Assembly: GCA_963971405.1 (NCBI GenBank)
Contig: OZ020485.1
Span: 51,829,469 to 51,893,468 of the forward strand
Origin: Psococerastis gibbosa
Lineage: Eukaryota; Arthropoda; Insecta; Psocodea; Psocidae
Direction: 5' to 3'
DNA: 64,000 bases
The notes below the pieces were generated by a model. That model did no database searches and was not told the origin of the DNA. It saw nothing but the letters and a program-made list of their open reading frames with translations. The position numbers and the translations under genes are program-made. Below, piece by piece: positions 2,765 through 55,000 of the stretch. Within the stretch, counting starts at the first letter, position 1; each line of letters starts with the position of its first letter.

Positions 2765-4015
2765 ACGAAAATTAACTGCTTTGGTGCTCAGATACTAAAT
2801 TGAATTCTAGTGATAGTATTATGGAGAGACAATAACCCTTTTTACGCTACTAATATTTACAAACAACATGATAGGCTAGCGTGTCGGCAGCCCAGCCGAC
2901 TAGGCTATATTTCATGGTAGTTATACAGTAAAGTTGTATGGTTATGGTAATAAATCATTACTAATTCATTAATTGTAATATGTATAAGCAAGCTTAGGCT
3001 CACATACCCATTTAAAAATCTATTCTGCCCTCGCGGAAGCATCACAACCAATGAAGTAAAATTAGATACACAAGTAAATAATATTTTTCGACAATTACTT
3101 GCAGCTACTTTGCCGCAATTTTTTGTCAGTACCCGCGCAAGTATTGAAGGAACATATAAATAGCACTAATTTTCCGTTGAAAAGCGAAAATTTCTTAAAA
3201 TAAAATAAATTTCATTGGAAAGCCTATACACTCCAAGTTAAAATGAGGGGGTGATGTCCGAGAATCAGGGGTACCCCCTCCCTTTCCGACAGCCCACCAT
3301 CTTTGTTTAACTGCGCAAGAACTCCATTGAACCCCCGGTCCGCGGCGTTTTCTAACATTTTGAAAACTTTGAAACCTTTGAAATAGCATTAGCGTAGTAA
3401 ATAATCGTGTTTTGGGATCTCTAGTCGTGGCTTTAGAGTAAGAGACATATTCCTGATTCCAAATAATAATATTGTTCTGGATTTTAGCAATCTTGAATCT
3501 ACCACATTGGCTTTACTACCATTATTATTAATTATTAATAGACCTATATTGAAATATATACGCACTAATCTGAATTGATTAAAGAAATGGATTTGAATGG
3601 AAATATAGCAATATGCAACATAGCAAGTTACAATCATGTGAGTTGCCTAAATTAACTTCCAATAATATGTAGCTTCTAGCTTGTAACATTTGTCTGTAGT
3701 GCTGTTAGGGACCACTAATGGTTACTGTGTTGGGATCATTTATTTCAATCCATTATGGGTTCAAGAATTGAAATTGAAACAGGAAGCTTACCAATTGAAT
3801 AGGCTTAGGTTCACTGACAGTATTATGCCAATGGACATAGCTATATTAATTGCTCTCTTGCAAAACATGGGTATCTGCGACTTCCATACATTAAAATCAA
3901 GTGAAATCAAAAATTTCGACCGTTAATAAGCATTCCTTATACTACGTATACATAGGGAAGCAAAAGAAGGTCCTGTTAATGTCAATTCGTCTTGGTTTCA
4001 TTAAAGGTTAAAAGA
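2765..4015. other. No gene seen
   Basis: AT-rich sequence with short unsupported open frames. The stretch at about 3,316-3,331 is an inverted near-copy of 617-632, next to the promoter-like block. Confidence 0.5.
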
Positions 4016-4440: not shown

Positions 4441-5507
4441 TGCCGGCCATTTTTTCATATACTGTAAGTTATAATGAGAAAAAGTTTTGAGATAAACTGG
4501 AACATTCCAACTACAAACTATAATACCTATTATATATTGACACTTCACTGATTCACCGCTAATACCAGAGTACTTAAGTTCTTAATGAAGGGCGGTAGGC
4601 AGATAATATTGTTTTTTTGACGAACCCTATAAATAGTAAAAGTGGGTCAACTCGCCACGACGGCCTGATAAGGACGTTTAACTGAGCTGAACCATTTTCT
4701 ATGTCTGCATCATGTAGTCTTTACATGAATTAGGCTGAGATGCGAATGCTAACAACTAAAAACCCAGTCAAATAACTTTAGTGGAGTGAGGCATCGGCAT
4801 GACACAGTCATATTTTTTTATGATTTAAAATTCGGCATGACGTGTACCTATTCAAATGGAAAATATTTTGAATTGCTACTTTTGTATTAGCAATACTTCC
4901 TGAATCACATAACCACCAGTTCCTACCCACAACTCAATTTTGGAAGCTAAATATGAGATTGAGGAGTAGCAATGTAATGCTAACGAATTTGATTTTAGTT
5001 TAGCTTATCTTTTTATTGCGAAAAAAAATAGAATCGAGACAATAGATATGTTGTTTCCACGAAAACATTAATTTGAAGGCCCAATAGTTTGACGAATTCA
5101 TCTATGCTGGTTATATAGTATTTCTCTCTCTCTTGGCTTGTAGATCACCTTTTATTCAGCCTTACATAATTTGAATTGTTATAGGTCTTAAAAGTTCTAG
5201 CAACCGACCACGCATTAGATTCTACTCGCCACTATTCGCAAGGGGAGAGTCCGAAACTAATACCTGCTAACCTATTCAGCATTGAATTAAACGCTTCAAA
5301 TCAGCAACATAGTAGTTCATTACTGTGACGTCAGGTTAAATGGAATAAGAAGGAGAAGCTCCTTCAATCTTACCTGATTTTCGTAAGTTAGTTTAATAAT
5401 TATTTTATGTTTTACGCAGAAACAAATGTAACCTGACCTAGAATGTGTCTTAACATCATGAGTGGGCAACTTACCCAATCTTATTAAGAATGGTAAATTC
5501 ACATTAT
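4441..5507. other. No gene seen
   Basis: AT-rich. No open frame with a recognisable domain and no clear repeat end. Confidence 0.5.
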
Positions 5508-5745
5508 ATTGTTGTATTAAATGGTGTATATAACACTAACATTAAATTAACTTTGGTTGAAGAGATAACCCCCACGAAATTAGAGGATATAGAAAAACTG
5601 AGCTTGACGGGATTCGAGCCCATGATCTACGCCTAGCCGGAGCGTCGTCTTAACCGCTGGACCAGAAGCCCCGACAAGAACAGTTGATGTACTTATATGC
5701 TCGAATTGACATGATTCGTATTGTCAGTCAGGTTAGCACAGCTAC
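5508..5745 (-). mobile_element. tRNA-cored foldback SINE, copy 1a
   Basis: On the minus strand a tRNA-like core (about 5,673-5,599) with a B box (GGCTCGAATCC in sense) is followed by a T run, an ATATCCTCTAATTTC block and the AT-rich tail shared with copies at 27.0, 33.0 and 37.0 kb. The side upstream of the core carries a spacer also found in copy 1b. The inverted tail arm expected at this end is missing or degenerate. Confidence 0.65.
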
Positions 5746-5792
5746 CGAACTAGTCTGTGAGCTTCCTTAATGCTATAAAGGCAATGCTTTAC

Positions 5793-6030
5793 ATATTATA
5801 TTGAAGTATTATATGGTTTATATAACACTGGTCTTAATTTAACTTTGTGTTAACCTGGATAACATTACGAATCATGTCAATACGAGGTTATAACTTGAAG
5901 GTATACATCAGTTACTGTTCTTGTGCGGTCTTACGTTCTTGTGCAGTTAAGACGACTCCCTGGTTAGGCGTAGATCATGTGTTCGAATCCCGTCAAGCCC
6001 AGTTTTTTTATATCCTCTAATTTTGGTGAA
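5793..6030 (+). mobile_element. tRNA-cored foldback SINE, copy 1b
   Basis: Inverted tail arm (about 5,800-5,865), spacer, tRNA-like core with B box GTTCGAATCCC (about 5,925-6,000), then the T run and TATCCTCTAATTT. Same layout as the 37.0-kb copy, more diverged. It lies head to head with copy 1a. Confidence 0.65.
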
Positions 6031-19422: not shown

Positions 19423-19439
19423 CACTTCAAAAATTCTGT

Positions 19440-20188
19440 AACTGCAAAGGCTTTCACGGCCGGAGTCAAATGAAGAACCAGTAGAATCCGGGCTGATGGG
19501 CCGTGGTCGAATTGAAAGTGAACTTCCAAACGTTTCGTCAACATCTGCGGTCGACATCTTCAGTGGCGCTGCGTAGACTTGGAAGGTTGTACCTCGGTGG
19601 CTCTGTAGCGAGTGACTGGGTAGGGGGCTGAGCACTGACCTTTATGCCTGGACGTTGTTGTTGTTGTTGTTGTTGTTGTGTTGAGAGCGAGCGAATCCTC
19701 GCTCTCAACACAACATGTCCCTCTGGGGAATTTCCATTACCTTGTTTTTCCCAATTGGCTGACGTCATCCTTTTCGTTGTTGTTTTGTTCAGCGCCGGAT
19801 ACCAGAGTTTGTTCACCTTTAAGCCTTCTTCCTTTCTGTTGAAATTGTGTTGGTGCTTGTATATTTCAATAGCTTCTCTGTGTAGTCTGGGGAAATATTG
19901 AGTAGCCCGTGACAAGACAGTCGCCTGTTTGTAGTGCACCGTGTGTCCAGATTGTGTTAGTACGTGCTCGGCAATCGCGGACTTCTCCGGTTATAGACGG
20001 CGGCAGCTTCGTTTATGTTCTTCTATCCTCGTATTTACGCTGCGTTTAGTCGTACCTATGTATACTTCTCCACAAGAGCAAGGAATTCGGTACACACCGG
20101 CTGATGTTGATGGGTCTCTCTGATCTGATGTTTGGAAGTTCACTTTCAATTCGACCACGGCCCATCAGCCCGGATTCTACTGGTTCTT
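19440..20188 (-). mobile_element. Penelope-like element, truncated, with GIY-YIG remnant
   Basis: The minus strand carries the Penelope endonuclease region (CGEVYIGTTKRSVNTRIEEHK) and the conserved sequence after it (REAIEIYKH, FNRKEEGLKVNKLWYPAL). The reverse transcriptase part is absent. About 60 bp at each end are inverted copies of each other (19,466-19,530 and 20,131-20,188), a terminal layout known in Penelope elements. A 17-bp duplication CACTTCAAAAATTCTGT flanks it (19,423-19,439 and 20,189-20,205), so the insertion is clean. It interrupts a LINE. A GTT microsatellite (19,655-19,678) lies inside. It looks broken, of moderate age. Confidence 0.85.
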
Positions 20189-20205
20189 CACTTCAAAAAT
20201 TCTGT

Positions 20206-26916: not shown

Positions 26917-27001
26917 CGTTGCCTTCACTCATTCAAACATCTTACTGTGATATTGCTTTGTATGTATAATAACAATAACTGCCTTTCATTGTCGCCCCTT
27001 T

Positions 27002-27268
27002 CACCGAACTGTATAACACTGACATTAAATTAACTTTGGTTCAAGAGGCAACCTCCTCGTTATGTATATCAGAATATTTTGTGGTCCAGCGGTTAAGACG
27101 ACGCCCCGGTTAGGCGTAGATCGTGGGTTTGAATCCCGCCAAACCCAGTTTTTTCCATATCCTTTAATTTCGGTTATAACGAGGAGGTTACCTCTTCAAC
27201 CAAAGTTAATTTAATGTCAGTGTTATACAGTATATACCATATAATACTACAATGTAATAAATAAAGCT
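27002..27268 (+). mobile_element. tRNA-cored foldback SINE, copy 2, with 10-bp target duplication
   Basis: An inverted tail arm (27,011-27,063) and a direct arm (27,176-27,228) match over 53 bp with two differences. Between them lies a tRNA-like core (about 27,077-27,148) with B box GTTTGAATCCC, then a T run and ATATCCTTTAATTTCGG. The unit is flanked by TCGCCCCTTT at 26,992-27,001 and 27,269-27,278. It lies between the 3' ends of MALT1 and PLGRKT. Confidence 0.85.
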
Positions 27269-27924
27269 TCGCCCCTTTAACTTTGCTCGTCATATCGACC
27301 TATTTAGTAATGAAAAAAAACGAGAAAATAGTGTTATACGTAATATTATACGTGTTGATTGATTAGCGGTGTCCATCACCATCCAACTTGCTTTGAGTAT
27401 GAAAGAATTAACTGAAACACTGGCTGTGTAGATTCCGATGCATAATAGAGCTCATACCAGGATGTTATCATGGTCATTCCAAGCGTAAAACTAGGCTCAC
27501 GTTATTTAGACTAGAAATATTTTGCTGCTTTTCCAATTGATCTGTAGTTTAGTTTTGTAAAGGCACCTATGTGATCTGATAGGTATCTTTTTTTTCTGTT
27601 TAATGTTGGCCAAAATCGTTAGGGGAAACTAAAAGTAGGCCCAAATGAAATCGTACGCCCTATCTGAGTTGGATACTAAAAAAACAATGGAATAAACAGT
27701 TTTTTTTTTCAATTTCTAGATCAAACTGTAGTTTAATATTCAATGGACGCATTAATTGTTGAATCAGGCTGCGATTCTATAGTATTAGTAGAAAATGTCG
27801 CACACATGGAAAGTTTACATCAATCCAGTGTAAAGCCAAGAAATGTAGCCGTGGTTATAGGGGTCTGTGTCGAATGCACCTTGAGCTAATGTGCGACGAT
27901 ACAAATGTAGGGCGTAGGCGTGGG

Positions 27925-32806: not shown

Positions 32807-32984
32807 GTGGCGACTGTGATTCTGTCTTGTGTAATAAATTGTTTTCTTGAGAACTCAATTGCATCTAGTGTATTCTTTAAAGGTTATGTCTGGACTTATG
32901 GTGTTACTCATATATTATATGATATAGCGCGTAGGCGTACATCAATTCTTCACTTCACTTCAATTTATTGGCGGATTTAGCTTT

Positions 32985-33146
32985 ACATTGTAGTATTATA
33001 TGGTATATACTGTATAACACTGACATTAAATTAACTTTGGTTGAAGAGGTAACCTCGTCGTTATAACCAAAATTAGAGGATATGGAAAAAACTGGGCTTG
33101 GCGGGATTCGATCCCACGATCCAGTTTTTTCCATATCCTCTAATTT
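32985..33146 (-). mobile_element. tRNA-cored foldback SINE, copy 3, 13-bp target duplication
   Basis: Read on the minus strand: a short inverted piece (AAATTAGAGGATATGG...), then half a tRNA core with B box GGATCGAATCC, the T run, CATATCCTCTAATTTTGG and the full tail ending near ACTACAATGT. Flanked by CGGATTTAGCTTT at 32,972-32,984 and 33,147-33,159. The 5' inversion and long duplication are what twin-primed reverse transcription leaves. Confidence 0.85.
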
Positions 33147-33159
33147 CGGATTTAGCTTT

Positions 33160-36130: not shown

Positions 36131-37017
36131 TATAACTAAATTGACCGGATTTTTTTAAATATTAGACATCATTTTTCGATTTTTTTTTTCATTTTTAAGA
36201 AAATTTTGCACAGAAGTGTAGGTATATTGTTCTTTATACCACCGGAAAGTAGAGATTTCAACGAACAAAGGAAAGGCCCACCTAATTTTTTTAAAAGAAT
36301 CGACATTTTGACGTGAGATTTTTCAATTGAAAATTAGGGTGCTTTTTCCATGTACAGTCAAAATTAGTCGAAAAAAATCAATATTTAAAATTTAAAAAAA
36401 TACAGTGTGTTTAGAACATAAAAAAGTTACTTTTCCCCAATTTTCACGTAAAAAGATTTAATTTTTGTGAACGTTAAAAATAAAAACCAAAACCCTGGTT
36501 TTTGGCATTTTTCTCATGAAATTTGAGGTTATTTGAAAAAATTGTAATCACTAAAGTTTTATTATCTAACTTTTTGCTATTTCACATTTTTCCATAGAAC
36601 TTGTAGGTTTGTCGGAAATGAAGATGTACCGTATTTCATCCCTAAAAACCACCCCTACCTGCCTCCCGAACTCAGATCGCCCGTAATTTATTTTTCCTTT
36701 AATGTCTGTCATATTATCATACATTGTACTATAATTTAATGGCCTAAAAAAAATTGTCTGCCCTGGGCTATAAAACCTAAGAATATTATTAAAAGGATGC
36801 TGCCTAGTGATTAATTGGTTTCTACGCTTAACTTGAATATTTTTGTAGTACACCATACGACGGTACCAAATTTATGTGTTTTAAAAAAGAAAGGGACAGT
36901 TGCATGGAATTTGATGGGGGACGGTCGTCAATTGAGTGGGAGCCGGGAGCATAGACAAATAACTAATATGGCCGGGAGGCTGCTGTTTATATTACCCAAT
37001 TCATTAACAAACTAACT

Positions 37018-37276
37018 TACTTATATTGTAGTATTATATGATATATACCACTGGCATTAAATTAACTTTGGTTGAAGAGGCAAGCTCCTCGTTATAACCG
37101 GCTTAGATAGTAGTCTATAACAATACCTAACAGCATATAAGTAGAGGACGTAATTATATCAACTATTCTCGTCGGGGCTTGTGGTCGAGTGGTTAAGACG
37201 ACGCCCCGGTTAGGCGTAGATCGTGGGTTCGAATCCCGCCAAGCCCCGTTTTTCTATATCCTCTAATTACGGTTCG
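37018..37276 (+). mobile_element. tRNA-cored foldback SINE, copy 4, 12-bp target duplication
   Basis: Left: inverted tail arm (37,023-37,098). Then a spacer of about 75 bp, an intact-looking tRNA core, a T run and TATATCCTCTAATTACGG. Flanked by AACAAACTAACT at 37,006-37,017 and 37,277-37,288. This is the best-preserved core of the family. The arm at the right end is truncated. Confidence 0.88.
37175..37246 (+). tRNA. tRNA-like core of the foldback SINE (not a host tRNA gene)
   Basis: Folds as a cloverleaf: acceptor GGGCTTG/CAAGCCC (7 bp), D stem GTC(G)/(C)GAC, anticodon stem ACGCC/GGCGT with loop CCGGTTA, T arm GTGGG-TTCGAAT-CCCGC. A box TGGTCGAGTGG and B box GGTTCGAATCC are intact for RNA polymerase III. 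The loop lacks the usual U33, so decoding is doubtful. It is embedded in a mobile element with a target duplication. Confidence 0.7.
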
Positions 37277-37288
37277 AACAAACTAACT

Positions 37289-38497: not shown

Positions 38498-39498
38498 GCA
38501 GCCCCAGGTTAGACCCACTCGTGATGAAGATCGTCTGCTAGCTTGTGTAGAGTCCGTTAATTTTTGAATCAAGTATATTTAATTTTTCTTCGGTTGAAAT
38601 CTTATTATTTTGTGCGTCAAATAATCGAAATTGGGCAGATAAGGGTCAACGCTGAAGACAACAGTACTTGGAACCAAGTAAAATTGACGGAATATACCTG
38701 AATATTGATATTTATTGTATCATTATATCATCTTTTGGACCTCAACCATCAGACGGACAACTTGTCATAGTCAGCTGAGTAGTGTTGTTATTTGACTTGT
38801 TTCGTAAATAATAACAAACTGATACGAGAATACGACTACTATTTTGAAAAGTCACTCACCACTGGATGAACCATCAAGGTGAAGGGAAATTATTGCAGTA
38901 CAACGCTTGAAAGACCAATTTCTCTTCACTAAATACAAATAGCCACGGCTGAACATCACCATTCACCGCACTTTGTAGTAGCCTGCTTGACTAGGACACC
39001 ACACTGTAGGATCAGAACACCACACTACCGAACTGAGCAGGAAAGCATCAACCAAATACGGTAATATCACACAAGTACTTTTAGTGAGGCAATTTGCTAG
39101 CTTGCGTTGTAAATTTTTTAAACTGCATGAACTTTGTTAACTTGTTGTGCCGCGTGTTTACTGTTTATATTTACAATTTTCATTTCTGAATGACGTGTCA
39201 ATAGATAGATTCTGGTTACTGAAGCGCCCACATACTTTTAGGCGGCAAATTCAAAATTAAAATTACAAACGGGACTATCTTAAATCGATTTTTATTTTTA
39301 TATTTTTATAAGTAATCTGAATTGAATCTGCGACTTATTGACTATATTGAGAAATTGTTATAACTGATTGGTAAGTTGTACTAACTTTCAGTAGGTATAT
39401 TGTATACATAGCCTACATATTGCACAGTATATATTTTGTATCGTTCAATTATCTAACTCACTTGACCCATCAATTTATCTAAGCCTACCTACTTCAGA

Positions 39499-40890
39499 AT
39501 GTCTTTGCTAGATCTGAGTATTCCAATATCAAACAATGACTCTAGCTTTAATGTAACTATGTCAAACGACACTTTTATTGAATCTAAGGCAAATGAAGTG
39601 TTTCAATACTATGCTGATAATCGAGATAGCCTGCCTGTATTGCTGTATGATAAGACAATGGGCTTCTTTAAGGAGATTTTTGACCTGGCGAACAAGGTTA
39701 CCCTTGAAAATGAGCGCTTGCAGAATACCATCAGCGAGAAGTCGGTAATATACGAAGAGCTGGATAGAGCTTATCTCCAGTCTCTTAAAACAGCTCACCT
39801 CCTGCGTAGCCAGCTTCAGTATATCGAAAAATCTGTATCTTGCGCCACTATTGCAACGCAAACTCCGATTGCTGAAGCTGCTATTGAGCAGTTCAAACCA
39901 AAAATTACTTTCTCTAACGCCCATACCTCTACTTGTGATTTAAATGTTTTAGACGACTTAAAAATGCAGGTAGGCACAGAGAGTACTCCGTTGTTAGCCA
40001 AACGACCAAGTCACGCTAGTGAAATTTTTAATATTGTAAAAACTCGAAAAATCACTAAACCTACAACAGTGACTTTAAGAACTATCGAAGTTCAGCCCTT
40101 TGAGGCTTTGCCCAGCACTGTCTCTTCTCCCAACCCTAAAATTTTTATCCTTAGTGACGAATATGGTAAAGGGCTGGGCCCATTGTTAAATACCCAGATC
40201 CAAATGAGTGGTTCATCTTCTGTGGCCCTGGGCGTTACGAAAACAAATGGTAAGCTAATGGATGTGGTTGAAAGTCTAGCTTCCATTTCTCACAATCTAT
40301 GTACGAACGATACTGTGATTATACAGGGTGGGTCAAACGACGTGCATGGTATTTACTCATTCCCTATCTCTCTAAGCCGTGCCCTGCAAAAGATTTTATT
40401 GTATAAGGACAAGTGTAAAACTATTATGTTAAATATCCCGTACCGATTTGACAAACCTGAACTAAATAGCGAAATATTTCACGCAAATGAACAAATAAAA
40501 AAGTTCTGCTTAAGAAACGGCATTTCTTACAAACTGGTTGAGTTACCCCGTTCAGACTACTCAAAATATGGTCGTAATTTGTCTCGTCGGGGGAAAAATG
40601 TATTAGCAAGGAAGTTAGTTGACTATTTATTACCGAACCTCATATCTCAAAGCGAAAATGTTATGGATACCCCCACCCAGATAGCTGCAGATATCTTAAA
40701 CGTCATTTTTGAAAATGCAACCAAGGCAGTTCAAATGCTATCCCCCTCTCAAGCAAATCAAGTTAATGAGAGTGAATGCCAGGTTCAAACTGGCCAAAAA
40801 ATTCAGATCGTTGAGGGCAGGGGTAGGCGATTGGAGCATTTTTTATTCAAAGGTCTATCTACCAAGAAAGGCCGCCACAAACGTATATAG
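39499..40890 (+). CDS. LINE ORF1: coiled coil plus SGNH-like domain
   Basis: ORF1 proteins of CR1/L2-type LINEs bind element RNA and often carry an esterase-like SGNH fold. This 463-residue frame has an N-terminal coiled coil (about 55-115, FDLANKVTLENERLQNTI and on) and an SGNH-like domain (about 210-375): KIFILSDEYGKGLG, then VIIQGGSNDVHG, then NLSRRGKNVLARKL. The GGSND block is kept, but the position usually holding the catalytic Ser (GDS) reads SDE, and the usual DxxHL His is replaced (RNL). So it is probably a non-catalytic fold. A basic C-terminus (KKGRHKRI) follows. No internal stop. Confidence 0.85.
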   Translation: MSLLDLSIPISNNDSSFNVTMSNDTFIESKANEVFQYYADNRDSLPVLLYDKTMGFFKEIFDLANKVTLENERLQNTISEKSVIYEELDRAYLQSLKTAHLLRSQLQYIEKSVSCATIATQTPIAEAAIEQFKPKITFSNAHTSTCDLNVLDDLKMQVGTESTPLLAKRPSHASEIFNIVKTRKITKPTTVTLRTIEVQPFEALPSTVSSPNPKIFILSDEYGKGLGPLLNTQIQMSGSSSVALGVTKTNGKLMDVVESLASISHNLCTNDTVIIQGGSNDVHGIYSFPISLSRALQKILLYKDKCKTIMLNIPYRFDKPELNSEIFHANEQIKKFCLRNGISYKLVELPRSDYSKYGRNLSRRGKNVLARKLVDYLLPNLISQSENVMDTPTQIAADILNVIFENATKAVQMLSPSQANQVNESECQVQTGQKIQIVEGRGRRLEHFLFKGLSTKKGRHKRI

Positions 40891-40904
40891 CCGTACCTGT
40901 TACC

Positions 40905-43748
40905 GTGACGAGGACCAATGACGCTGCACAGTGGTCAAATCTCAGTCTCTTACACATTAACATTCAATCACTAAATTCTAAGTTGTCATTCATTAAATCA
41001 CTCCATACAATTAATACCCTACCTACCGATGTACTGTGCATTTCTGAGCACCATATGCCTCAGCTTCAAATTAATACAGTAAACTTTGAAAATTTCTTCT
41101 TGGCCACTTCTTTTAGTCGCAAAAACCACGGCCGCGGAGGTTCGTGCATTTTATTGGCAAATAGGTGGAAAGACAAAAATCGTCCCCGTACGGATTTAAT
41201 GGCTAGAAATAGCGAATTTCATTTTGAGATATGTGCTGTAGAGCTTGTTGAGAGTAAATTAGTCATCTTGTCAGTGTATAGGTCCCCAAATTATGGCTGC
41301 CGCAATGTCTTTCTAGAAAGTTTAAATTGGGTAATAGAAGAAATTGCTACTGAGGGCAAAAACATAGCCCTCGCCGGAGATTTTAATTTCCACTTCTTAG
41401 ATCCTAACGATGCTTTACCACTTACTGATCTCACTTTCTCTTACGGGCTGGCAAATACCGTACAATGCCCCACAAGAGGCAACCAGTGCTTAGACAATAT
41501 TTTTACTAATTTAGCTTTTAATGACCCGGATGTTTTTGAAACGGGCATGTCTGATCATAAAGCAATCCACATAAAGCTTAGGATATGTAAAACTATACGT
41601 CAAACGGTTACACCGCAAATTAGACGGAAACTAAATAAAGGTAATTTGGAGAACCTATCTTCATATTTAAAAACGGTATGTTGGTCGGATATATATGAAT
41701 TGCCCTGTCAAGATGTAAACACCCTTTTTAAAAACTTCTTGCAACACTTTCAAGGAGCACTAAATTTATTTTGTCCATTTACTCCCCACTGGAAAACTAA
41801 CCGTATTTCTGTCAATTCCCCTGAACTAACGAGTATTTATGCTAGAATGAAAGACACTAATGTACTAATAAAAAGTTGCCAGGACCAAACATTGAAAACT
41901 GCCCTTCGTAAGCAGTACAGGATACTAAATAAGTTGGCGGAATCCACTGTAAAAAACATAAATGACGGAAAGATAAAAAACGATTCTAACTTATCTCGTG
42001 GTGCTTGGAAACTAATAAGGGAAACTGTGCACATAAAACCGGTTAAAACTGGGCCGAAGGAATTGTGTGTGGGAGGTTCGGTCACCTCAGACGCAAATGA
42101 AATGGCTAAACATTTTATAAACCACTTCTCGCAACTACCGGTACCGCCTAAATCAGACCTATCGCCCATTGACATCATGAGGAGAGTAACAGTCAGTCCT
42201 GTCGACTCATTTTTTTGTCGCCCAGTGTCTCATGATGAACTAACTCGTTTATGCAAGAGTTTTAAGAATAGTAAAGCTCTAGATACATATGATATGTCAT
42301 CCACACTAACAAAACTTTGTTGGCCTTCTATAGGTGAAATTGTAACTTATTTAATAAACACGGTTATATCAGAGGGTGTTTTTCCCTCTTGCTTGAAAGC
42401 TAGTGAAATCGTACCTGTATATAAAAAGGGGGACAAAACTGAGGTAGGAAACTGGAGGGCTATCTCCATCTGCCCATTTCTTTCAAAGTTAATAGAAAAA
42501 GTATATTGTGACCAATACTTAACCTTTTTAACTACAAAGGACATCCTTAGTCCCGATCAGTTCGGTTTCCGCAGGAGGCGGAGTACAAATGACGCACTGT
42601 ACTCTTTCATGTCATCAGTATATGAACTTGTGGACAACAGAAATACACTGGGTGGCATTTTCTGTGACCTGAGTCGTGCCTTCGAAATGGTCCCCCATTC
42701 TATATTGCTTGATAAATTAAGTCATTACGGTCTTCGTGGACTACCTCTTCAATTTTTATCTTCATACCTCGAAGGTCGGGTACAGAGGGTTCGTTTGAAT
42801 CAGGACAGTGGAGACACAGTTCAGTCGGAATGGGTACCAGTAGAAAGGGGCGTCCCGGCTGGTTCAGTTTTCGGTCCAATCCTGTTTATCTTATTCGTAA
42901 ATGACTTGCCTGCGTCCATGCGCCCCCACTGTACACAGTGCACCTTATTTGCCGACGACACCAGCCTGTTAGTGTCAGGTAATAGGAACGCAAATTTAAG
43001 TCAGTTAACTGAAGTTTCGCTACTGAAGGCACAAGAATGGTTTGACGCTAACCAATTGGTGCTTAATACTAATAAAACGGTGCTTGTGAACTTCACAAAA
43101 AATGATATTTCGTCGTCATTGTCAGTAAATGGTCAGGTTCTCGCGCTTAGTGCAAAAACTAAATTTCTGGGCTTAATTATTAACAGTGGTCTAAGCTGGA
43201 CTGATCATATTGACGCACTTAGTGCTAAGTTGTTATCAGGGCTGTATCTTCTCCGTACGCTTGCCAGTCAGGTCAGCAGAGAGGCTCTTAAGCTAGTATA
43301 CCATGCCTGTTTTGAGTCCCATCTCAACTATGGAATAATTTTTTGGTATGGCTCGCCTCAAAATGTTTTAAATCGACTCTTAGTGTTACAGAAACGAGCC
43401 ATTCGTACCATGTGCCGCCTCCATCCTCGCACCCATTGCAAGCCATACTTTAGGGATCTGGGGATTTTGACACTGCCAGCACTCTATGCGTTAAACCTAC
43501 TTATGTTCGTGAGAAAGGACCTATCAATTTTTGATACTAGAGATGGAAGGAACGGTAGAGTGTTGCGGGGGTTGAGAGTGCATTTTGAGAGCTTTCGCTT
43601 TTCCCCGCAGTACCGGGGAATAGCGCTCTTTAACAGTCTTCCTCGGCATTTGAGGGACGAGCCTAGTGTCAAGATCTTCAGAGTTTCAGTTAGGGAATTA
43701 TTATTAAAATTGAGCCCATATGATGTGCGTTTCTCCTTTGAACAGTGA
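40905..43748 (+). CDS. LINE ORF2: APE endonuclease and reverse transcriptase, intact frame
   Basis: The 947-residue frame has all APE endonuclease motifs: LLHINIQSLNSK, ISEHH, VYRSPNYG, AGDFNFHF, MSDHKAIH (1-about 230). The reverse transcriptase follows (about 500-780): FGFRRRRSTNDAL, IFCDLSRAFEMV, RGVPAGSVFGPILF, catalytic LFADDTSLL, KTKFLGL. The C-terminus has FESHLNYGIIFW and LQKRAIRTMC. It starts 14 bp after the ORF1 stop. No in-frame ATG lies near: the first codon given is GTG, the frame is open further upstream, and the first ATG is at about 41,056. Translation may therefore use re-initiation or read-through. Jockey/CR1 superfamily. Confidence 0.92.
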   Translation: MTRTNDAAQWSNLSLLHINIQSLNSKLSFIKSLHTINTLPTDVLCISEHHMPQLQINTVNFENFFLATSFSRKNHGRGGSCILLANRWKDKNRPRTDLMARNSEFHFEICAVELVESKLVILSVYRSPNYGCRNVFLESLNWVIEEIATEGKNIALAGDFNFHFLDPNDALPLTDLTFSYGLANTVQCPTRGNQCLDNIFTNLAFNDPDVFETGMSDHKAIHIKLRICKTIRQTVTPQIRRKLNKGNLENLSSYLKTVCWSDIYELPCQDVNTLFKNFLQHFQGALNLFCPFTPHWKTNRISVNSPELTSIYARMKDTNVLIKSCQDQTLKTALRKQYRILNKLAESTVKNINDGKIKNDSNLSRGAWKLIRETVHIKPVKTGPKELCVGGSVTSDANEMAKHFINHFSQLPVPPKSDLSPIDIMRRVTVSPVDSFFCRPVSHDELTRLCKSFKNSKALDTYDMSSTLTKLCWPSIGEIVTYLINTVISEGVFPSCLKASEIVPVYKKGDKTEVGNWRAISICPFLSKLIEKVYCDQYLTFLTTKDILSPDQFGFRRRRSTNDALYSFMSSVYELVDNRNTLGGIFCDLSRAFEMVPHSILLDKLSHYGLRGLPLQFLSSYLEGRVQRVRLNQDSGDTVQSEWVPVERGVPAGSVFGPILFILFVNDLPASMRPHCTQCTLFADDTSLLVSGNRNANLSQLTEVSLLKAQEWFDANQLVLNTNKTVLVNFTKNDISSSLSVNGQVLALSAKTKFLGLIINSGLSWTDHIDALSAKLLSGLYLLRTLASQVSREALKLVYHACFESHLNYGIIFWYGSPQNVLNRLLVLQKRAIRTMCRLHPRTHCKPYFRDLGILTLPALYALNLLMFVRKDLSIFDTRDGRNGRVLRGLRVHFESFRFSPQYRGIALFNSLPRHLRDEPSVKIFRVSVRELLLKLSPYDVRFSFEQ

Positions 43749-49000: not shown

Positions 49001-52000
49001 TTGCATTGGCACTGAAATCTCGAGATGGAAAATTTTGACCATCGATCACAAAGCTTTCCTTATACTAGGGCCTGTAGGGTACTTACGTACTGTAAGTAGG
49101 AAAGCAAAAATACTATGAACCAAAATATTTTTTGTAACTTTCGAGCAAAATATGGAAGCTGTGAAAGTAGGCGTGTATAGGTACGCCAAAACTGCCTTTT
49201 TAATGACTCTTTCTTCAGTTTACGTAAATGCGATAGTCTATTATTTATGATTATTACCTTCCTTGGCTATCATTTTGATGATGCGAAAGCGCAGTATGCT
49301 GGGCAGCGCGAGCACGCGGATGAGCCTGCTGGCGTGTAGCATCAGCTTGGACCCGTGACACCTAAAAAGACAATCATCCAATAACAACAGATTTTAATTA
49401 TTCACCATTGTTTATGAAAGGCTACTATATACAAGTAACGGAAAATTAAAAATAATGCTTACACTATATTGCTTTCCAGTTCCGCCTTCTCGTGCCAGCG
49501 CTGCAAAACGTCAACAATTTGGTTGGAATGCTTGTGGTAAAACGGTTTTATCGACAATAAAATTGTTAACATTTTGAAATATATCATGTAGACATACCAG
49601 ACCCTCCAGGGGCAGAGCTGCTGAGTACAGGGGCAGACCCACCACTTCCTCTTCCAGGGCCAGTTGTGCGAGTGTTTGCAGCGACGGCTGCAACACAAAA
49701 ATAAAGGACGTAAGGTGAGTGTTGACCAGAGCAGTAGTGCAGGTGACATCGAGGACAATTCTTTGGCAATGGCGGAATATTCTTAATTTCCTATACAAAG
49801 CAAACTCACAAAATTTTTACAAACAAGTTGAATAATTGCAAAGTTGCAGGACAAGTCAGTGTTTGGTTGGAGATCATTGCCCCGTAGGTAGTCTGCACTC
49901 AGCTTTATTACTGACTGCTTACTGGCCTTTATATTACTACGGGCCGCACTACGTGTTCCATGCGGGCACTATTATCATGATGTGTTTCATGAGGCTTTGA
50001 GGTCTCTAAAAATATAACTTTAAAACCATTCATGGCGGAGGCCCACGACATCGAATTAATTTTAGATTCCGATATTTCAACGGATTTACACATTTTGAGG
50101 TCCTAGGAACCAAAAAAAGTGGTTTTTACGAAATGCCTGCCTGTCTGTCGGCCGGTCTGTCTGATTTGCGGGCACAAAAAGCATATATCTCGGGACCGTT
50201 TTTATTTTATTTCAGGCTAACTCAAGTTCGGGGGGGGGGGGGGGGTGTTTCACACCAAAAAACGACGACAAACAAAATTATTTCCCTAAAACGGCTTTAA
50301 GGATTTCCTTTAAATTCACGTAGTCTATATTATTGTTGTCGTTATCAATGTTAAGAAAACCCAATAGGTCGCTTGCCCCCTGATAGTTTGGTTCTGGGGG
50401 GGGGGGGGGGAAATGACGACTCAATTTTCATGAAAAATAACTAAAACATCATTTTTCTACGGAACCTTATTCTATCGATGATTTCTGTACCTTCAACCTT
50501 CAAGTACGTTTTAGGTGTAGGTGTTAAATGTAGTAACAAACCGAAGAGGTTTCTTTCCCAAAACAGACTTGATTTTATGCAAAAAATTATTTTTTTGAAG
50601 AAATTATGGAAAATTTACGCTCCAATATATTGCGTAACTTATTACTGTATGGGTATATTATATATGTTACTGTATCCCAACAATAACACTCCGTGTGTAA
50701 AAACAGGCCAAGTTCCTAACACCGATCTTGCAAAAAGTTTAGCCATTCAAAGTAATGAGATCTAAAATTTGGCCAAGTTCTTTGGCAATTAAAAGTTATG
50801 AGATAGGGATGAGGGCCAAGTTCATAGGTCACAGAATTTTTCAAAATATATGGCTGCGTTGTAGATAACTTGGCCTGGGTCTTAACCTAAAAAATAGCAC
50901 AACTTCACCAGGAGCGTCTTATTTCCATACAAATAGGCGACCCAGTAATTGTATTCTAGCCATAATGACGGTATCGAAATATAGGCTCACAATGACCTAA
51001 TGAGACTGCTATTGAATAGCACAGTCCTAAAACATCATTTTCCAGGTTACATTATTGCACTGCAGCACAGTCCTAAAACATCATTTGCCAGGCCAAGTTA
51101 TCTATAACGCAGCCATATATTTTGAAAAATCCTGTGACCTATGAACTTGGCCCTCATCCCTATCTCATAAATTTTAATGGCCAAAGAACTTGGCCAAATT
51201 TAAGATCTCATTACTTTGAATGGCTAAACTGTTTGCAAGGTTGGTGTTAGGAACTTGGCCTGTTTTTACACGGAGTGTTTTTGTTCTCATAACTTTTTGC
51301 AGTAGGTCTACTTGTGACATCATACTTTTAATATAACACACGTAATGTACGATTGGATGTAGGCGAACTGCTAGATGGACGCTGCTGTTTGTATTTTAAG
51401 TGGTGTACACTGACTGAGGACTCAAACTTTAATGCAAAGTCGCAAAGTCATGTAAACACCACGGTTAAGGTTAAGACAAAGATTTGAAAATCACAACAAC
51501 AAAAACAAAAAACAACAACAACAACAGCAGAAACAACAACAGGAACAACAGCAACAACAAAAGCAGAAACAGCAGCAACAGCAGAAACAACAGCAGTAGA
51601 AACAACAGCAACAGCAACAACAGCAGAAACTAAACAGCAGCAACAGAAACTACAACAGCAACAACAACAACAAGCATGAAAGCACACATTACCATGCAAC
51701 ATGCATCTGAAAACTACAAGCCGCATTAGTTTTTTATTTCTCCACTGTTGTTCAGGTACGACAGCGAATATTTTGGATTTTGGAACTTTGCTGTTAGTTT
51801 TAGTTAATTACCTACCTACATGCCAAATTTCAGATTTCTAGGTCCAAGGGATGTCATAGTAGAAAAATCTCAGAATAGGCACATTTTGCGCTGTAGTTCA
51901 GAAACGACAGCAGATATTTTGGATTTCATAAGTTTTCTGTTGGTATGAACAGATTACCTAACTACACGCAAAATTGCAGGTTTCTAGGTCCAGCGAATGT

Positions 52001-55000
52001 CATATTAGAAAAAGCTCGGAATAAGCATATTTTGCGCTGTAGTTCAGAAACGACAGCAGATATTTTGGATTTCATAATTTTTCTGTTGGTTTGAATACAT
52101 TACCTAACTACATGCAAAATTTCAGGTTTCCAGCTACAGTAAAAGTGCCTAAACATTATGATCAGTCACTCATCTTTACATTATATCTTTTTCGGGGTTT
52201 TCAGGCATCTGTATCTCAGCCATCTGTAAGCCTTACTTTTTTAATATGTTACAGAGAAGTATAACTTTAGGAAACATTCAAAATGTCATTGGGGGCAAGC
52301 TACAGGGGCTCAAAAGTGCCAAATTTCGCGTTTAAGCTCTTTCGTGTATAACTACTGGGTCGCGCAACAGTCGGGCGGGTGTTGGAACTTGGCTCGTGCG
52401 CTTCCGCACACGTTAATTGGTCTGCCTGTCTCAGTATATGATGTAATCCCATCGATCAATTCAGTGCTTTGGGATATGGGATGTCGAGGGATCCGAAATT
52501 TAACCATAGGCCTAACTTACATAGGAAAATTATTTAGTATGGAATTACTCATAATATCTAATTATTTACTAATTATTAATAAATGGGAAAGGACGTTGGA
52601 GTAAAGTTTTGATGGTACCCGTTTTGTGGTCACAGCCACCAAAATATCCTTCTTATGAAATATCCGGTCCGTTCTTCGATTTCTAGGCACACTAGGCCTA
52701 CACATAGTGCATTTTAATTAAATTTGGTATATAGGTTAGGTATTTATAACTCAATTTTATAGGGTTTTATTCTATTCAAAAAATAAAACAATTTTTTTTA
52801 CTTCTAAAAAAACTCACGATTTCTTTTAAATAAAACGTAACACCGTGTTCAATGCCATTATCGTTAGGTAACCAACCCATATACTATATAATTATGAAGA
52901 TTTTGATCGGCCACCTTAATTGAAATTAAATGGCGCAGATCTGGCTGGTTAACGAATTCGGACATACATATGTGCCCTCTGAACGTAACTAAGGTGAGCA
53001 TTGCAACACGCAAGACGACATCTTCAGGGAGACAGCAAACCTGCCAAGGGGCATTGGCTAGGTTAACGCATTTCATCAAGACAGTGATACATTTTTGTGC
53101 GACGTTTCATCAAAATTCGATAATAGGCTATTAACGTAAGTATACTAATAATAATTATATTATCACATTACTTTCACTTTCACATTATACATATATATAT
53201 ATATATATATATCACATTTCACTGTCCACCATCTTGAAATTAAAGCCGTTTCTTTGTCGTAAAAATTGTTAATGACCATGAATGACATGGGCATTTTTTT
53301 ATTTGTCTTTTCAATCTGTGTACAAGTACAGTTAAAAAAAAAAAAAACAGGCTTTTCGTCACATCTTAGTTCATCCCTTCATGAAATGAAAAAGTTATGA
53401 AGGCATTATTTTTCTGGAAATTGAACATGGTCGCCGCCCGAATAGGTAAGATCCCTTCTAGTATGATCGCCTTCGATAGTATTTAGCATAAGCTTGAACT
53501 TGGGCAAGTCTCCACACACGTGATCGGGGGCGCGTCGTAACTCGATCAACGCGGGCAATAGCCCAGAGGGGCGACTCAAGTGGTCAATTGGATACATATT
53601 CATTAAATTGTTGGTGTGCGGTTAACATTTTCTTTATAAATAATATAGTCTCCTTATAGTAACTTTGTAAAACTTGCTGTCATTCATTGTGAATAAATTG
53701 CTTTGTTAGGCCTAAGTCTTACGTTACAGTATATCATTAAAAAAAACACAAGCGGTTTTCGCTGACTCAAGTGATAAACTTTTAAGGTGACTTCTCAGAT
53801 GCAATTACAACACGATAGTCTAACATAGCGCACATACTGTTATGTTGCAGCATAATTATAATACAGACATTAAACTAACTACTAACTTAGGCCTATGTCC
53901 AACAGTCAACCTCCTCATTATAACCGAAATTTGAGGATTTAGAAGAATCTGATTCGAATAGTCATAGATTGTGGGTAATTTATACGTAGTATAAGTAAAG
54001 CTTTGTGATGGTCCAAATTTTCAATTCTGAGATTTCAACGGATTTACACGTTTTGAGGTCCCAGGAACCCAAAAAAGTGGTTTTTACGAAATGTCTGTCT
54101 GTCTGTATGTCTGTCTGTGCGTCGGTTTCCGGGCAAACTACTCGGTCGATTTTCATGAAATTAGGCATGTAGGTTCACAAAAATCTTACCTCGGGACGAT
54201 TTTTCTTTATTTGAGGCTAACTCAGTTTGGGGGGGTTTTATTCTCTAAAAAACTCCAAAAATAACGTCTAAAAAAATTATTTACCAAAACGGCTCCAACG
54301 ATTTCTTTTAAATTCACATAGGTATATATTGTAGATGTAATTAATGTTGATAAAATGTGAGGGGTCGCTTGCCCCTTGATAGTTTGCTTCTGGGGGTAAA
54401 AAAATAAAAATAACTAAATTTTAATGAGAAATTACTAAAAAATAATTTTTCTGCGAAACCTTTTTATCAATGATTTCTACCTTCAGGTATGTTTTAGGTG
54501 TTAAATTGAGTAACGAAACCGGACAGGTTGCTTTCCCAGAAAAGTATTTGGCTTTGTACAAAAAAATGTTTTTTTGAAAAAATGATAGAAAATTCACGCT
54601 CAAATGCTTTGCGTGCCCTGCCAGCATTGCTGTGTGGTAATGTGTTGGTCTGACCTATCTAAAATTTACCTCACCTCCAGTGACGTCAGGTGGGCAACCC
54701 CTCCCCCCTCTCCCCCGAGATATCGGAAATTTAACCATAGGAAAATTATTTACCATGAAATTACTCATTTTCTCTATCTACTAATTTTGATAAATTGGAA
54801 AGCATGTTCGAGTAAACTCGGACCGGTTCTTTTGCCATTTACCTCTACCAATACATTTTGGGCAATGCAATGAATGGGTTATTTTCGGTCCAAAATGAAC
54901 GGGGTACATGCCCTAGAAGTTTGTCACCCTTTGTGTATAATGTACCGTATATAATAGGTTTAGCTATAAAATAAATATATAGGTGAGGGCTACTTACACA

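Follow-up and report, generated by a model that had tools for sequence, protein, structure and literature searches.

We analysed a window of 64,000 nucleotides from Psococerastis gibbosa (GenBank assembly GCA_963971405.1, contig OZ020485.1, positions 51,829,469 to 51,893,468 of the forward strand), in which an earlier note had drawn attention to a repeat at 27002..27268 as a palindromic short interspersed element (SINE) with a tRNA-like core. We conclude that the family to which this repeat belongs is very probably a non-autonomous, tRNA-bearing retrotransposon with a unit of 323 bp, mobilised by a Penelope-like element (PLE) enzyme through Penelope-type priming at two internal sites. Its insertions follow the same two-site grammar as those of a PLE family in the same genome, sampled at locus L092, and this argues for Penelope-type mobilisation rather than for a SINE driven by a long interspersed element (LINE) or a miniature inverted-repeat transposable element (MITE). 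The element's most probable partner, judging from abundance, youth and duplication length, is this L092 family, which is young.

We searched the assembly (409 Mb, 68 contigs) with a 46-bp core of the element and obtained 2,441 matches at no more than three mismatches, compared with 0 for the reversed pattern; the window copy at 37.0 kb, used as query, returned 2,743 first-look candidates, of which 40 were scored. Loci were sampled as the best 30 from each of three queries, a sample that leans toward the best-matching copies, and 94 match clusters were classified after removal of repeated fetches. The 323-bp unit, which lies head-to-tail in places, comprises the tRNA-like core (unit positions ~1–74), a run of six T (T6; 76–81), end A (~101–104), a 76-nt stretch with stem-loops between end A and end B, end B itself (~180), and a 143-nt leader that follows B and reaches the next tRNA. 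Ends A and B are thus about 78 nt apart. The unit is too short for the open reading frame (ORF) of an autonomous PLE, which encodes reverse transcriptase and GIY-YIG.

Outward-facing antisense–sense structures accounted for 61 of the 94 clusters and the converse sense–antisense order for none; 32 clusters were single-strand and 1 was complex. In the classified clusters both ends fell on A or B in 48 of 94, and the pairing was A/B in 48 of 48. Scored against a longer reference of 12 units, the 61 two-segment insertions comprised 47 A/B, 1 A/A, no B/B and 13 with an off-site end, the sole A/A insertion being an old copy (71%) in L043. Loci found with the two queries that are blind to the other end gave 27 A/B, 1 A/A, 0 B/B and 7 off-site. 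Wherever both ends were resolved, A and B were both sense 3′ ends pointing outward. The windows flanking A/B insertions shared at least 11 bp in 31 of 48 cases, compared with 0 of 938 mismatched flank pairs, and among the young A/B insertions 23 of 24 had target duplications of 11–15 bp (12 bp in twelve). The earlier note had reported duplications of varying length and several copies with an inverted tail; in this sample, too, duplication lengths vary and inverted copies are common. In line with the note, insertion apparently proceeds via RNA and not by cut-and-paste.

The same arrangement was found in the L092 family. GIY-YIG matches in the genome amounted to 707 candidates, 150 of them scored; L092 contains a long frame encoding RVT_1 and GIY-YIG domains, and five more of the picks (L095, L096, L097, L098 and L099) match it at 95–100%. 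L096 and L099 end at L092:3518-3520 and L098 at 3558, and L097 continues within the frame. In all seven inverted pairs of the family that we inspected, the ends divide between L092:3516-3520 and 3556-3560, one at each site; six of the seven pairs have abutting duplications of 11–14 bp. The end-A pattern of the family gave 2,674 matches (reversed control, 0), and among the 100 of these that were listed, neighbours within 4 kb were divergent in 17 cases, convergent in 0 and on the same strand in 0. Endonuclease (EN) matches, 150 scored of 2,684 candidates, were 98–100% identical in protein, which indicates that the family is young.

Several observations weigh against this conclusion. The locus sample is biased, drawn as it is from three queries and the best 30 loci of each, and 33 of the 94 clusters could not be resolved as two opposite segments. 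The shared 11 bp is retained in just 8 of 24 older A/B insertions. On the side of the PLE, the end in L095 lies at L092:3501 and so misses both sites; the seventh inverted pair, at C14:38.09M, has a 13-bp match that does not abut the end; and the seven pairs had been picked as inverted, so that only their A/B pairing was free to vary. The distance between the two sites is ~78 in the element and ~41 in the L092 family. The element ends show no clear similarity to the L092 ends: their comparison gave a score of 51, where the highest of 500 simple shuffles reached 52. With dinucleotide-block shuffles the scores were 51 for L092 (shuffle mean 34.7, maximum 64), 54 for L098 (38.8, 67) and 48 for L096 (37.8, 63), and L095, L097 and L099 scored 34–38, about the shuffle mean. 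Finally, the T6 run directly after the tRNA (unit 76–81) should halt RNA polymerase III (Pol III) before end A is reached.

The course of an insertion can be outlined from these ends. An RNA that continues over unit boundaries, either multimeric or circular, would be bound by the PLE enzyme, which would cut both strands of the target with an offset of about 12 bp. Reverse transcription would then be primed at one internal RNA site, A or B, by each of the ends so produced, and both cDNAs would extend toward the 5′ end of the RNA over a variable distance before being joined, often via short homology, to give an inverted insert. The published biochemistry contains the corresponding steps: a purified PLE enzyme is reported to cut and extend the two strands and to initiate reverse transcription from a pair of neighbouring internal RNA sites, between which the genomic tail lies (PMC11167929). 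PLEs with inverted pseudo-long terminal repeats (pseudo-LTRs), tails and duplications of 8–10 bp have been described, as has an unrelated gene that was moved between PLE pseudo-LTRs; PLE repeats can mobilise unrelated sequence in trans (PMC3846280).

The interior of the 24 young A/B insertions is as variable as their outer ends are fixed. Inner ends are scattered across the unit, cDNA lengths range from 25 to 2,571 nt, and the unit boundary is crossed by the A cDNA in 16 of the 24 insertions and by the B cDNA in 14, a pattern of reading that would fit circular or multimeric RNA. Inner junctions share 1–7 bp in 16 insertions and a 35-bp overlap in one, with none in the rest. Because these junctions vary among copies, we conclude that insertion itself generates the foldback shape as a by-product. 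The earlier note had supposed a heritable palindrome, which we rejected because arm lengths and inversion points differ from copy to copy. Three loci, L045, L052 and L062, do have near-equal inner junctions (B side 308–319, A side 92–94); the duplications of L045 and L052 differ from each other, and a search for a target duplication at L062 found none. A cDNAs of 332–340 nt, just over one unit, occur in 5 of the 24 young A/B insertions (a small and unplanned count), as if the enzyme stopped soon after one lap, and a circular template fits them.

A tandem array in L091 consists of eight head-to-tail tRNA-bearing units, of which seven are complete and without differences among themselves and the eighth stops at B. 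The array is a single insertion with a 12-bp duplication, made up, on its left, of 109 inverted nt that start from A and, on its right, of 2,571 nt in the sense direction to B. We considered a single template molecule per insertion and found it doubtful, since the two cDNAs of one insertion can be unequally diverged: 13 mismatches in 131 nt and 3 in 430 in L072, 14 in 264 and 2 in 183 in L065. This suggests, from sequence divergence, that two template molecules were used in those two insertions; L071, L074 and L091 show no such difference. Tandem amplification can also extend to rearranged copies, as a 483-bp tandem repeat in L094 (C1:13690700-13691900) has a unit that already holds an inversion of the element. 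In an element copy of L066 a further repeat is nested (~907-1457), the ends of which look long and inverted by eye.

The choice of partner is less secure than the mechanism. The same two-site priming could be served by a PLE other than that of L092, which we consider unlikely but possible: the family of a fragment at 19423-20205 of the window (minus strand), its relative in L110, or an unsampled family. The window fragment, which matches the EN region of L092 at 34% identity (E 3.7e-5), represents another Penelope-like family; its ends are inverted and it is flanked by a 17-bp repeat. Young relatives of it are abundant (150 scored matches; best 30 at 93–100%), and end similarity does not single out L092. 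Its 17-bp repeat, at the single copy measured, in the window, is longer than the duplications of the element (11–15 bp) and of the L092 family (11–14 bp), and L110 showed no clear likeness to the unit (score 39, reversed control 28). Two candidate links between the element and its partner were considered. A common end sequence has no clear support: it came down to a long, gapped, AT-rich alignment in which the ends are not aligned and whose score lies within the shuffle range. A common RNA fold at the start sites was rejected: the element region forms a better fold than shuffled sequence (z −4.2, −3.2), unlike the region of the PLE (z +0.58).

Mobilisation by a LINE, as proposed in the earlier note, would make the element a tRNA SINE subject to frequent twin priming, with 5′ inversions as the outcome. 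A tRNA-like core and variable duplication lengths speak for this, and twin priming does yield an antisense–sense structure. In twin priming, however, the second cDNA starts at variable places, whereas in this element each start is confined to a narrow site, the two pair strictly (47 A/B, 1 A/A and 0 B/B of 61) and the cDNAs run across the unit boundary. A tRNA SINE would be expected to have a single 3′ end, and the element has two, both pointing outward. Two fixed outward ends fit Penelope-like elements better, the more so as the PLE family of this genome has the same. The earlier note had suggested looking for a LINE whose 3′ end matches the tail; compared with the LINE-like frames of the window (39466-43748), the 37.0 kb copy gave no match at E ≤1, LINEs elsewhere in the genome lying outside the search. 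We regard the LINE-driven account as very improbable. A foldback or MITE-type DNA transposon with a captured tRNA deserves practically no credence, for although several copies have inverted arms at both ends, arm length and position vary, the outer ends are unlike each other, duplications measure 11–15 bp and head-to-tail units occur. Two outcomes named in the note as fatal to an RNA-mediated inserter with inverted arms, namely that most copies lack the arm or that duplications have one fixed length, did not occur in this biased sample; no transposase search was made. A foldback shape need not imply a DNA transposon.

We turn to the tRNA-like region within the Penelope-dependent element. Old and young copies are separated by no fixed difference in the 73 positions of unit 1–73, by 2 in the 107 of unit 74–180 and by 10 in the 143-nt leader; Fisher tests gave p = 0.018 for tRNA versus leader and p = 0.007 for unit 1–180 versus leader. 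Mismatch rates of old copies were 0.099 in the tRNA, 0.097 in the A–B stretch and 0.194 in the leader. Given so few fixed changes, source copies seem to have kept both the tRNA and the A–B stretch. The tRNA-like region contains a B-box sequence. The tRNA may perhaps be conserved for promoting Pol III transcription, as a site of processing or as a structure that the enzyme encounters. Inner cDNA ends, counted for the 82 of 108 ends with at least 85% identity, were piled up at both edges of the tRNA: 23 of 82 at unit 69–102, with 8.6 expected, and 8 of 82 at unit 1–10, with 2.5 expected, in windows chosen post hoc. These piles hint at processing of the tRNA, and the pile at 69–102 would also be explained by the tRNA fold stalling the enzyme. 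A hammerhead was absent from the Rfam matches (E ≤5 in L091, E ≤10 in L092 and L094), and no other known ribozyme was among the Rfam matches in these three loci. One could imagine that the tRNA replaces the hammerhead, with RNase P and RNase Z cuts setting the RNA ends and a unit-length or circular template as the product, which would make the element a Penelope-dependent counterpart of SINEs and retrozymes; we put this forward as a speculation that is rather improbable.

The copies in the window illustrate the grammar and its exceptions. The flagged insertion (27002..27268, plus strand) has an antisense body arm (27008-27063), a tRNA-like core (27079-27146) and a sense arm from 27176 (arm match 27176-27231) that runs ~15 nt beyond end B, all between 10-bp duplications TCGCCCCTTT at 26992..27001 and 27269..27278. 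The two arms form a 56-bp inverted repeat that is perfect except at two positions; the earlier note had counted the differences correctly and gave the length as 53 bp. This copy is atypical, its right end lying ~15 nt beyond B and its left end within the B arm, and it is among the 13 of 61 two-segment insertions with an end off A and B. The copies listed in the note at 5.5/5.8, 27.0, 33.0 and 37.0 kb are all present, except that those at 5.5 and 5.8 kb are halves of a single old insertion of 526 bp (5502..6027) with an imperfect flanking repeat: the first half (5502-5847) is antisense from end B and contains a tRNA (5599-5671 minus), and the second (5846-6027) is sense to end A. The 33.0 kb copy (32985..33146) runs antisense from end B into the tRNA, of which only the 3′ part is retained, and then has a short sense piece to A; its 13-bp duplication CGGATTTAGCTTT occupies 32972..32984 and 33147-33159. 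The 37.0 kb copy (37018..37276), from an older subfamily, consists of an antisense B arm (37021-37100), a diverged stretch, and then the sense tRNA and end A, flanked by the 12-bp duplication AACAAACTAACT at 37006..37017 and 37277-37288. The duplications of 10, 13 and 12 bp reported in the note are thus borne out as perfect at 27.0, 33.0 and 37.0 kb.

The tRNA-like core described in the note was also recovered. Rfam placed three stretches of the window above its tRNA cut-off of 29: 37175-37247 (59.8 bits), 5599-5671 minus (38.2) and 27078-27143 (36.4). ARAGORN called two tRNA genes, one at 5599-5671 minus and the other at 37.0 kb, where the core (37174..37248, plus strand; RF00005, 59.8 bits) was named tRNA-Thr with anticodon ggt; such a tRNA scan takes some element copies for tRNA genes. 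Elsewhere in the window lie a 44-bp fragment of the element (53908..53951, minus strand, 86% identity), two long frames at 39466-43748 that look LINE-like by eye and have little damage, and a 184-nt inverted repeat at 50695-51271, 96% complementary, with arms 209 nt apart.

The novelty of the element is that of a non-autonomous Penelope-type element with a tRNA, within a known class of mechanism. Literature searches listed no tRNA-bearing Penelope-dependent element in open-licence papers, a scope that left out most subscription papers and Repbase, where an entry may exist. The element resembles tRNA-derived SINEs in being short and present in many copies and in having a tRNA-like region with a B-box; it differs from them in its two outward 3′ ends, its tandem units, the T6 run right after the tRNA and its Penelope-type grammar. 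With Penelope/Poseidon-type PLEs it shares two adjacent internal start sites with the tail between them, an inverted pseudo-LTR, partial tandems, target duplications and extension of both strands (PMC11167929, PMC3846280). It differs from them in its 323-bp unit, which leaves no room for the ORF, in the tRNA within that unit, in having no hammerhead match, and in the spacing of the start sites, ~78 nt compared with 30–40 in those accounts and ~41 in L092. Two priming sites on a 323-nt RNA would offer a natural template. Short non-autonomous Penelope elements of heliconiine butterflies are likewise non-autonomous Penelope-related repeats, described in the available text of PMC6685494 without a tRNA or an analysis of ends. 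Helenus (TRIMp3), likewise a short non-autonomous retroelement, also has a tRNA-like sequence within its terminal repeat; it is of LTR type, with a primer-binding site, a polypurine tract and duplications of 4–5 bp, whereas the element has two-site ends and duplications of ~12 bp (PMC10886601). Metazoan retrozymes are similar as short, non-autonomous tandem units of about 170–400 nt, and they differ in carrying a type I hammerhead where the element has a tRNA-like core and no hammerhead match (PMC7229834). PLEs were named there as a strong candidate for retrozyme mobilisation, in passages that give no insertion-level proof, and the unusual insertion grammar that this short tandem element has in common with a PLE of its own genome makes that proposal directly testable.
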